Source: Asticcacaulis excentricus
Lineage (GTDB): Bacteria; Pseudomonadota; Alphaproteobacteria; Caulobacterales; Caulobacteraceae
Direction: 5' to 3'
Assembly: GCF_003966695.1 (NCBI RefSeq)
Contig: NZ_AP018828.1
Location: 774,001-838,000, forward strand
Length of the DNA stretch: 64,000 nt
A program made the position numbers and the translations under genes. Every line of letters begins with the position of its first letter. Position 1 is the first letter of the stretch. Below are positions 12,133 through 59,013 of this stretch, one piece after another. The notes under the pieces are model-generated. The model had not been told where the DNA came from, did no database searches, and saw only the letters and a program-made list of their open reading frames with translations.

Positions 12133-14220
<2,088 letters not shown>

Positions 14221-56487: not shown

Positions 56488-56563
56488 GCCGGTTTAGCTC
56501 AGTTGGTAGAGCAGTTGTTTTGTAAACATCAGGTCGCGGGTTCGAATCCTGCAACCGGCACCA
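56488..56563 (+). tRNA. trnT: tRNA-Thr (TGT)
   Basis: Acceptor GCCGGTT/AACCGGC, D-arm GCTCAGTTGGTAGAGC, anticodon loop TTTGTAA giving TGT, GGTTCGAATCC arm, encoded CCA. One T-T pair in the anticodon stem is noted. It marks the edge of the small accessory patch to its right. Confidence 0.96.
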
Positions 56564-56579
56564 TAACATTGTTATTTTT

Positions 56580-56601
56580 CAGACGCTTAGTCTGTTTTTT
56601 C
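56580..56601 (+). terminator. Terminator after tRNA-Thr
   Basis: CAGAC (56580-56584), GCTTA, GTCTG (56590-56594), then TTTTTT. Confidence 0.85.
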
Positions 56602-57006
56602 CTTTAGATTCATGCTACTATGCGGAGACGATCATCCGTGTACGTCCACGCATTTCCACCAATATCCGCCGGGTGCCCGTGCGGTTTATGGGCAGATTTC
56701 GGGGCATCGGATGAGTGAACCCTTTCAGGTGCCCGCCCACCCTAACAGACCGGCAGCTTGTGGAACTGTTCGATCTGTCGGCCACCCTGCGCGGGGAAGC
56801 CAATACCGGGCACATGTGGCTGGCCCTGATGTTCCTCTCAAGGGTGCAGATACTTCACCGCATCAGGCGTGCACGCCAGCGGACATCACCGGATGCGGCC
56901 GGACCAAGGAACGATGAGCTGAACCGGGGGGAAAGGCACGGACATGCGTTTGAAGAAGCATCTACGCATCGGGCAAGCCGTCCTGCGGTCGCCCTCCCCG
57001 TCATAT
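56602..57006. other. Non-coding or decayed region after tRNA-Thr
   Basis: About 400 bp with no solid gene. From about 56711 two overlapping frames look like one broken gene: one gives MSEPFQVPAHP, the next gives LTDRQLVELFDLSATLRGEANTGHMWLALMF before losing coding character. This suggests a frameshifted remnant. I do not recognise a family. Confidence 0.3.
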
Positions 57007-57420
57007 TCAGTTAGCGGCCCAGGGGTCGGTAATAGTTAGAGGCAAACGGTCAAAGTCTTTGGTGTTGCGCGTCGCAAGTTGCGCGCCAGCTACAGCCGCG
57101 ATCCCCGCTATCATCATATCAGACGCCGTTGAGGGGCGCCCAGTGGCGTCTCGCAAAGCCCGAAACTGACCCGCTTTGTATGCTGCACTTTCATCAAGCG
57201 GGACAGCCCCAAGAACCTCAAGCAAGGTCAGAAAGGCCCTTTTCAACTCCGCTTTGCGCGCACCGTCCGGCAGACGCTCCAACCCGTAGGTGATCTCGGC
57301 AACAGTGATGGCGGTCGTCGCGATCCTTATATCACCTATGCGGTTCAGCCAGTCCACCACAGAGGGATGGGGCTGTGCTTTCATCAACTCGGATACGACA
57401 TTGGTGTCGAGAATGACCAT
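57007..57420 (-). CDS. VapC/FitB-type PIN-domain toxin
   Basis: A 137-aa ribonuclease toxin. The PIN acidic residues are visible: Asp in LDTNVVSELM at about 5, Glu in TVAEITYGLERLP, an Asp in STASDMMIAGIA and one in RNTKDFDRL. The FitB-like phrase ITYGLERLPDGARK fits that subgroup. The ATG at 57420 is 14 bp after the antitoxin gene. Its target RNA is unknown. Confidence 0.9.
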   Translation of the reverse strand: MVILDTNVVSELMKAQPHPSVVDWLNRIGDIRIATTAITVAEITYGLERLPDGARKAELKRAFLTLLEVLGAVPLDESAAYKAGQFRALRDATGRPSTASDMMIAGIAAVAGAQLATRNTKDFDRLPLTITDPWAAN

Positions 57421-57434
57421 GGCTCTCAACCCAC

Positions 57435-57677
57435 CTATGCCCTGAAATCGGGCACGTCCCGGTCGGAATCTCGCGACGGGAGGTCCAGTTCAACGCCCTT
57501 GTCGCCGCCAAACAGCTCTTTTGACAAGGCCAGAAGGCCCGGGCCGGAAATCCCGCCCACCGCCTGTTTCAGGATCAAACGCGCCTCTTCCTCCATCGAA
57601 TGCCCATGCGTCGCCGCCCTGATACGCAGGCGTTCCTTCAGCGCGTCATCAATGTTGCGGATGGTGATGCTTGCCAT
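57435..57677 (-). CDS. FitA/VapB-type ribbon-helix-helix antitoxin
   Basis: An 80-aa antitoxin: ASITIRNIDDALKERLRIRAATHGHSMEEEARLIL, in pieces, is a FitA-like RHH domain. The C-terminus with PSRDSDRDVPDFRA is disordered and likely binds the toxin. It starts with a GACAGG ribosome site. The pair lies between tRNA-Thr and the CRISPR-cas remnant. Confidence 0.9.
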   Translation of the reverse strand: MASITIRNIDDALKERLRIRAATHGHSMEEEARLILKQAVGGISGPGLLALSKELFGGDKGVELDLPSRDSDRDVPDFRA

Positions 57678-57824
57678 GACCTGTCTCCTATTGCGTTAAA
57701 ATAGCACGGCGCAATCAATGAAATCAATGCAGTCATTTGGAATTCATCGCCTGATCGCGACACAGGACTGGACTGACCCAACCATTCAAGCCATTCTCCA
57801 ACTTCAGCCGTGGATTGAGCGCGC

Positions 57825-58145
57825 ATGGATTACATCAAAAACTATTGGGGCAAGGCGCGCCCCGTGGAAGGTTCGCAAACGGATTGGCACCCGCTGGCCT
57901 ATCATAGTCTGGATGTCGCTGCGGCTATGCTGGCCTTGCTTGAACGGCGACCTGCACTGCTTGAAGCCGTATCGCGGCATTGCGGACTGGAAAGAGATGA
58001 GACACGTCAGCAACTCATAATGGTGGCGGAGCTACACGACATCGGAAAGTTTGCCGAAAACTTTCAGTGCAAGGTGCCGGAACTGGCCGCGCGTCTCGGA
58101 CACGAGCCGGAGCGCGCGTGGCTGACCGACGGCCGCGGCGATGTC
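57825..58145 (+). pseudogene. cas3: 5' fragment of type I cas3 (HD nuclease domain), truncated
   Basis: About 107 codons match the N-terminal HD nuclease domain of Cas3. MDYIKNYWGKARPVEG opens it, followed by DWHPLAYHSLDVAAAML (His27), then LHDIGKFAENFQCKVPEL with the HD pair at 71-72 and Lys75. Normal type I-E Cas3 is around 900 residues. Here the frame passes straight into a CRISPR repeat after codon 107 and then into antisense thiG. The helicase and all other cas genes are missing. I read this as a deletion scar, not a working nuclease. Confidence 0.85.
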
Positions 58146-58174
58146 CTGCTCCCCGCCCACGCGGGGATGAACCG
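58146..58174 (+). CRISPR. Single type I-E-like CRISPR repeat
   Basis: A 29-nt unit begins CTGCTCCCCGC and ends GCGGGGATGAACCG, with CCCCGC and GCGGGG forming the usual stem around CCAC. The length, stem and ATGAACCG tail are those of type I-E repeats. It reads in frame as LLPAHAGMNR. Only one copy is present. The next 32 nt (58175-58206) have the length of one spacer, but no second repeat follows. Confidence 0.8.
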
Positions 58175-58218
58175 GATAACCGCCCTGTCGAGACTAGATC
58201 TAGACAAAACTGTCGGGC

Positions 58219-59013
58219 TTAAATCAAACCGGCCAGAGGCGAGGACGGATCGGCATAGAGCTTCTTCGCCATCCGCCCGGCCAGATAGGCTTCGCGTCCG
58301 GCGATCACCGCGTGCTTCATGGCGACAGCCATACGGATCGGGTCCTTGGCTTCGGCAATGGCCGTGTTCATCAGGATAGCGTCGCAGCCCAGCTCCATAC
58401 CCACCGCCGCATCCGACGCCGTGCCGACGCCCGCATCGACCAGCACCGGCACCTTCGCGTTCTCGATAATGATGCGCAGCGTCACGCGATTCTGGATACC
58501 GAGACCCGAACCAATAGGCGCGCCCAAAGGCATAATGGCGCACGCCCCAGCCTCTTCCAGCTTTTTGGCATAGACCGGATCGTCCGAACAATAGACCATG
58601 ACGTCGAAGCCGTCCTTGACCAGCAGCTTCAGCGACCGCAGCGTCTCTTCCATGTCGGGATAGAGGGTCTTGGGGTCAGACAGGACCTCCAGCTTGACGA
58701 GGTTCCAGCCGCCGGCCTCACGCGCCAGACGAAGCGTCCGCACCGCGTCTTCGCCGGTGAAACAGCCCGCCGTATTGGGCAGGTAGGTGAATTCGTCCTG
58801 TTTGACATAGTCCATCAGCATGGGCTGGTTCGGATCGGTCAGATTGACGCGCCGCACGGCTACGGTGACGATCTCAGCGCCCGACGCCCGCGCCGCCGCA
58901 GCGTTCTGGGCGTAGTCCTTATACTTGCCGGTGCCGACGATCAGGCGCGAGGAAAAGGTGCGCCCAGCTACGGTCCAGGTATCCGGTGAAAGGGCGGCGG
59001 TCGGTTCGGTCAT
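58219..59013 (-). CDS. thiG: Thiazole synthase
   Basis: Makes the thiazole of thiamine from deoxyxylulose-5-P, ThiS-thiocarboxylate and dehydroglycine. The 264-aa TIM-barrel has [38 protein letters not shown], the Schiff-base Lys in [23 protein letters not shown] and [13 protein letters not shown]. It lies downstream of thiS with one unknown gene between. Its stop is only 12 bp from the CRISPR-remnant spacer. Confidence 0.97.

Follow-up and report, generated by a model that had tools for sequence, protein, structure and literature searches.

What is the short stretch that separates a tRNA-Thr gene from thiG in Asticcacaulis excentricus, a duckweed-associated bacterium, and how could the beginning of a type I-E cas3 gene have come to abut a CRISPR repeat there? 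The two elements meet within the 64,000-nt stretch of genomic DNA analyzed here (hereinafter the window), and the available evidence makes it very likely that the site is the nonfunctional remnant of a type I-E CRISPR-Cas locus, that is, a deletion scar.

The cas3 fragment, the repeat and the tail

The open reading frame (ORF) at 57825-58379 on the plus strand, the start of which reads MDYIKNYWGKARP, encodes 184 amino acids and is Cas3-like for 107 codons. These codons (57825-58145), the first eighth of the gene, represent the 5′ end of a type I-E cas3 gene and cover the first part only of the HD nuclease domain, as indicated by profile searches (Pfam, PADLOC and NCBIfam), orthologues and alignment. 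Residues 8-94 match positions 1-87 of the 207-position Pfam profile Cas3_HD (PF18019; E-value 1.8e-23, 84 bits against a cut-off of 23), the top PADLOC match is Cas3e (2.4e-17), and the top NCBIfam match is PRK09694 (Cas3; 3.9e-17), a partial match with 61.5 bits against the full-length cut-off of 569. The initial annotation, made from the sequence and its ORFs, had held that a lack of Cas3 profile matches would refute its reading of the site as a deleted type I-E locus; the matches obtained are strong. Among the solved structures, four distinct sequences match the fragment (best E-value 9.7e-6), three of which are named Cas3.

Codon 107 abuts the repeat without a gap at 58145/58146, and the translation continues across the join (...GRGDV|LLPAHAGMNR|ITAL...) until the frame closes at 58379 within antisense thiG sequence. 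All these particulars, including the in-frame LLPAHAGMNR, had been described initially and were confirmed. In an alignment at the join with five orthologues, four from the family Caulobacteraceae and one from Nitrospirillum, homology ends at or just before 'GDV', the valine of which (V107) is the last residue encoded before the join. The residue aligned with V107 is followed by G in all five orthologues and by GH in three of them, neither of which is found in the window, and the later HHG motif, present in all five, is absent from the fragment. A cas3 N-terminus was detected in 5 of the 299 sampled genomes of the family, including that of A. excentricus itself, and the four other family orthologues are open frames ranging from 434 amino acids, encoded on a 7.3-kb contig, to 898. 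A functional type I-E system would include a Cas3 protein with a complete HD nuclease and helicase, and codons 1-107 alone are found at this locus. Because the HHG motif and the helicase are missing from the 184-codon frame, its product should not work as Cas3, judging from the known mechanism.

The repeat (58146-58174, plus strand) is a single complete type I-E CRISPR repeat of 29 nt with a perfect consensus sequence. It is identical at all 29 positions to the array repeats of a close relative (G129) and at 28 of 29 to those of Asticcacaulis sp. AC402 (G042). The 29-mer has one copy in the window, and none of 100 dinucleotide shuffles contains a match with three or fewer mismatches; at the same tolerance, the 3.79-Mb genome contains a single instance of its 25-nt core. 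There is accordingly no array of two or more repeats with a spacer in between, and a lone repeat is not expected to do the work of one, given how arrays are known to function. A rough estimate suggests that a whole repeat could end up precisely at the junction too readily for its presence to reveal how the junction formed. Microhomology with the end of a leader was considered and rejected: the first repeats of AC402 and of a second congener (G119) are preceded by ...TGT and the cas3 fragment ends with ...GATGTC, but, as judged by eye, pairing of the two would leave one C fewer than observed. The final repeats of the arrays are altered in AC402 and G129 and unaltered in G119. The 25-nt core of the window repeat is also contained in two viral contigs from IMG/VR (L099:627-651 and L100:2-26).

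The 44 nt between the repeat and thiG (58175-58218) could be a truncated spacer, an array trailer or junction filler. No second repeat follows position 58174, and homology to the thiG sequences of the relatives aligned begins again at 58214-58223. The initial annotation had suggested that the first 32 nt of this tail (58175-58206) might be the last surviving spacer, a proposal that gained no support: the segment is not flanked by repeats on both sides, matches no mobile element and, with up to three mismatches, matches itself alone in the genome. Searches for a phage or plasmid origin yielded nothing beyond chance, with two phage records for window positions 58165-58221 (E-value 5 at best, covering 58168-58188, that is, the end of the repeat and 14 nt of the tail) and four plasmid records for the tail (best E-value 0.6). 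Neither an exact 18-mer nor an exact 19-mer was found in the viral contigs, and comparison of the tail with the other loci studied gave no match beyond chance.

Type I-E loci of the genus and the missing parts of the system

Complete type I-E gene sets are present in two congeners, AC402 and G119, in both of which the genes are arranged in one direction in the order cas3-cse1-cse2-cas7-cas5-cas6-cas1-cas2-array and Cas3 consists of 875-882 amino acids. Cse1 (PF09481) was detected in these two of the 25 genomes of the genus, and also in 2 of 14 control genomes. A repeat pattern matched once in the A. excentricus genome, 73 times in AC402, 15 times in G129, 41 times in G119, once (with two mismatches) in G085, and not at all in the remaining 20 genomes; the reversed control pattern produced one match in each of two genomes, so that the single match in G085 is at chance level.

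The locus of AC402 (NZ_AWGC01000020.1) resembles the site in the window in its Cas3, which is 71-75% identical over the fragment, in its near-identical repeat, and in strand and order, but differs in having a complete operon and a 74-repeat array, on a contig other than those that carry its metG and thiG genes. In AC402, about 8.4 kb separate the codon aligned with V107 from the first repeat. The array of G129, whose thiG is 95% identical at the DNA level, shares the exact repeat of the window but comprises at least 15 repeats with 31-32-nt spacers and lies near a tRNA-Ser gene at a contig end (L024:9332-10248); the G129 genome contains no match to the Cas3 N-terminus or Cse1. The initial annotation had also noted that the occurrence of the 29-nt unit in relatives outside any CRISPR context would count against it, and here the opposite was observed: repeats of this kind make up real arrays in AC402, G129 and G119, which in AC402 and G119 adjoin the cas operon. 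The site in the window thus combines homology to Cas3e, a repeat like those located next to the type I-E operons of relatives, and the strand and order of an intact locus. The placement of cas3 and the repeat on one strand, in the order of the intact locus, is what an internal deletion predicts.

The G119 locus has some features of its own. Between its cas3 and cse1 genes (L025:6998-7064), there are two CRISPR-like palindromes (TCCCCGCATCTGCGGGGA and a 94% copy) and two copies of GGTACTTTCTATACAAA; located where the promoter of Cascade could be, the palindromes possibly represent a small regulatory mini-CRISPR. The cse1 gene of G119 contains an early in-frame TAG (L025:7458-7460), and its cas1e matches as two pieces in different frames (about position 12963), which suggests that this locus, with possibly damaged cse1 and cas1, may itself be decaying. 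Between AC402 and G119, cas1e is 95% identical over 244 amino acids and 82% over the other 73, and cas2e is 90% identical over 98, compared to just 57-63% for cas3, cse1, cas7 and cas5; apparently, the adaptation genes underwent an exchange of their own.

The genome of A. excentricus (3,793,195 bases) consists of two large replicons, C1 (2,422,803) and C2 (1,079,025), and a remainder of 291,367 bases (plasmid). A query with the Cas3 N-terminus retrieved a single match in this genome, the fragment in the window. No Cse1 (PF09481) was found genome-wide, leaving Cascade incomplete, and no Cas1e (PF01867), the sole Cas1 match being a type II fragment (C1:158474-158632). The search for the helicase part of Cas3, Cse2, Cas7e, Cas5e, Cas6e and Cas2e covered 373,502 of the 3,793,195 bases: tblastn with eight Cas proteins of AC402 and G119, including full-length Cas3, against these bases (17 pieces, the window among them) recovered the window fragment alone. 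The adaptation genes are likewise missing, Cas1e from the whole genome and Cas2e from the 373,502 bases. With one Cas3 N-terminus, one repeat and neither Cse1 nor Cas1e genome-wide, alongside the Cas3e profiles and the repeats of congeners, the initial reading of the site as the scar of a deleted type I-E locus is supported.

The chromosomal setting of the scar

The conserved metG side of the site ends with tRNA-Thr(tgt) (56488-56563, plus strand; predicted with ARAGORN). This side was matched in all 10 relatives searched, and the alignment with relatives ends at 56564-56570 in all four compared. On the other side lies an intact thiG gene (58219-59013, minus strand). The interval in between (56565-58218) is, by comparison with relatives, the remnant of a cargo island at an inversion junction and includes 440 nt that are unassigned, a toxin-antitoxin pair, the cas3 fragment, the repeat and the 44-nt tail. 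A VapC/PIN-domain toxin (57007-57429, minus strand; Pfam PIN, 4.3e-16; NCBIfam VapC, 1.4e-17, below its cut-off) likely partners with a FitA-like ribbon-helix-helix antitoxin (57435-57677, minus strand; Pfam PF22513, 4.3e-20), and the two are likely the remaining cargo beside the cas3 remnant. The possibility that this pair is a conserved CRISPR partner was rejected, the ORFs upstream of cas3 in AC402 and G119 being unlike it by eye.

To the right of tRNA-Thr (from window position 56565), four relatives (G104, G094, G129 and G085) each carry different genes in the stretches compared, which identifies a variable cargo site in the genus. Variable cargo lies between tRNA-Thr and a facing clpX in three relatives: the clpX side is located within 0.8 kb of tRNA-Thr in G085 and about 26 kb from it in G104, and in G094 about 40 kb of one contig separate tRNA-Thr from a chemotaxis-like gene next to clpX. 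The type I-E locus and the toxin-antitoxin pair were presumably cargo of this clpX/tRNA-Thr island; an entry later than the inversion described below is also conceivable and would give the same scar. Among the matches listed for the 10 relatives searched with the tRNA-to-thiG stretch, neither cas3 nor the repeat lies beside tRNA-Thr (the right flank was read in four), nor is there an intact locus at the same place; both complete congener loci are located elsewhere than at the tRNA-Thr/thiG site. An intact ancestral locus at this place is thus inferred rather than observed.

The thiG gene is present in 24 of the 25 genomes of the genus. In all five relatives compared in detail (G104, G094, G129, G085 and G137), its other side differs from that in the window, and the thiG flanks of these relatives align with one another; in G104 and G094, they comprise orf211, a DsbA-like gene, an M48-like peptidase and RNase E (named by eye). 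In A. excentricus, the usual downstream neighbour block of thiG is found 291 kb away (C2:541383-545371). In G104, metG and thiG are 291 kb apart and in the opposite relative direction, an arrangement shared by G085 (about 290 kb).

Pieces of the region C2:503001-858000 were mapped onto C2:350001-715000 of G104, with matches shorter than 1,200 nt dropped. Positions 514260-539620 correspond to G104 350001-375793 in direct orientation, 542001-549112 to 692074-684935 in inverted orientation, 549278-768614 to 468902-684884 (direct), 768941-830570 to 468809-401754 (inverted), and 833810 onward to 695001 onward (direct). Flanks of 7 kb and 62 kb are thus inverted around a co-linear core of 216-219 kb, for which the simplest reading, relative to G104, would be an outer inversion of about 291 kb with a nested re-inversion of 216-219 kb. 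The sign of the GC skew changes inside the rearranged stretch, which therefore probably spans the replication terminus; given that the change lies inside the stretch both in A. excentricus and in G104, the skew is not informative as proof of which order is derived. The order in A. excentricus appears to be the derived one because G104 and G085 share the other.

The scar occupies the outer inversion junction, between tRNA-Thr and thiG. At the reciprocal junction, the stop codon of the chemotaxis-like gene beside clpX is joined to orf211 with about 48 nt unmatched (C2:541335-541382). The rest of the type I-E locus does not reside there: tblastn with the eight Cas proteins detected no cas gene in C2:523000-542500, and window positions 56501-58300 match this region with an E-value of 0.029 at best. 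As far as gene order tells, it is the inversion that would have brought tRNA-Thr and thiG together. The initial annotation had proposed to look in close relatives for an intact system between tRNA-Thr/metG and thiG, a search that cannot work because the two are not neighbours in the relatives compared. Of its account of a plain deletion, the deletion scar stood and the simplicity did not, the setting being an inversion junction.

Origin of the scar, alternative explanations and known parallels

The deletion scenario can be outlined as follows. The ancestor would have carried, on the plus strand, a type I-E locus with the gene order seen in the two congeners, most likely within the variable clpX/tRNA-Thr cargo island. 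A deletion with endpoints after codon 107 of cas3 and at the 5′ boundary of a repeat would then have created the join, eliminating the remainder of cas3 together with Cascade, cas1-cas2, the leader and every repeat but one, a loss of at least 8.4 kb if the locus was AC402-like. Before, after or together with the deletion, a terminus-spanning inversion would have placed this end of the island beside thiG. The reading frame, the start codon and the repeat are unmutated, and therefore the loss was probably recent.

Alternatively, both changes might have occurred in one event, in which a CRISPR locus suffered a break, made for example by Cas3 or by its self-targeting complex, and repair connected it with another break adjacent to thiG, with loss of the interior and inversion of 291 kb. 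In agreement with such an event, it is the scar that bridges one inversion junction, and short unmatched filler is found at both (44 nt here and about 48 nt at the reciprocal one). Nevertheless, this possibility appears unlikely: no self-target is apparent, the putative spacer matching itself alone, although a target could have been destroyed; the site is variable in each of four relatives, so that breaks there need no CRISPR; and the cas3-repeat join resembles a plain same-strand deletion. It is slightly less probable still that the CRISPR loss and the 291-kb inversion were a single event begun by the CRISPR-Cas machinery itself, through self-targeting or through nicking by the integrase at the edge of a repeat, a position that coincides with the cas3 join to the nucleotide. 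If true, the scar would record a CRISPR-driven chromosome rearrangement; nothing shows CRISPR to be the cause of the inversion.

It is very unlikely that the remnant is active, either as a truncated HD protein or as a mini-CRISPR-like RNA that regulates the toxin-antitoxin pair or thiG. The 107 native codons are still open, the repeat is unmutated and a PIN/FitA-type toxin-antitoxin pair adjoins, but a recent loss accounts for the intact frame equally well, the repeat is alone, the HHG motif is missing, and Rfam gave no match in 57600-58600 at E-values up to 1. Moreover, without Cse1 there is no complete Cascade for a CreTA-like use. A CreTA mini-CRISPR regulator would involve two degenerate repeats at a guide, as reported (PMC8501985), and Cascade in the genome, whereas the site in the window has one repeat and the genome no Cse1. 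Finally, a wrong joining of repeat and cas3 sequence in the one assembly on which the analysis is based is the least credible explanation, considering that A. excentricus M6 is reported as three circular PacBio contigs at 254-368x depth (PMC6256675) and that no Cse1 or Cas1e exists elsewhere in the genome as a source of the rest of a misplaced locus.

The deletion relic is of a kind already known and reflects an ordinary process rather than a new system. In Salmonella and Shigella, degraded type I-E (Ecoli subtype) loci in some strains have lost the cas operon and retain a cas3 pseudogene and a few repeats (PMC2886076). The relic in Asticcacaulis is similar in the loss of cas genes and the retention of a cas3 remnant but differs in two respects: nothing separates its cas3 piece from the repeat, and its site doubles as the junction at which an inversion joined chromosome arms. 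Inversions across the replication axis are themselves described, for instance, in Streptococcus mutans (PMC2907686), where, in the portion of that study consulted, CRISPR is not tied to the breakpoints, in contrast to the junction in Asticcacaulis with its CRISPR relic. The inversion junction is the sole uncommon feature. No description of the scar was found in the literature on Asticcacaulis CRISPR, A. excentricus genomes, inversions linked to CRISPR loss or self-targeting, orphan or degenerate CRISPR and truncated cas3 relics, which does not prove that none exists. The site provides a clear example of a bacterium losing CRISPR immunity and, given its link to an inversion junction, cautions that a comparison of gene order with relatives should accompany any 'simple deletion' account of such a scar.

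A second CRISPR scar is located near a tRNA-Ser gene on C1 (157705-158644; L060:7706-8645). No cas9 was seen among the ORFs listed there, and the scar comprises the C-terminal 121 amino acids of a type II Cas1 (PADLOC Cas1_II, 4.1e-32), a 110-amino-acid Cas2 (Cas2_II, 5.8e-39) and three repeats 66 nt apart. The strain has apparently shed parts of two CRISPR systems, one of type I-E and one of type II.
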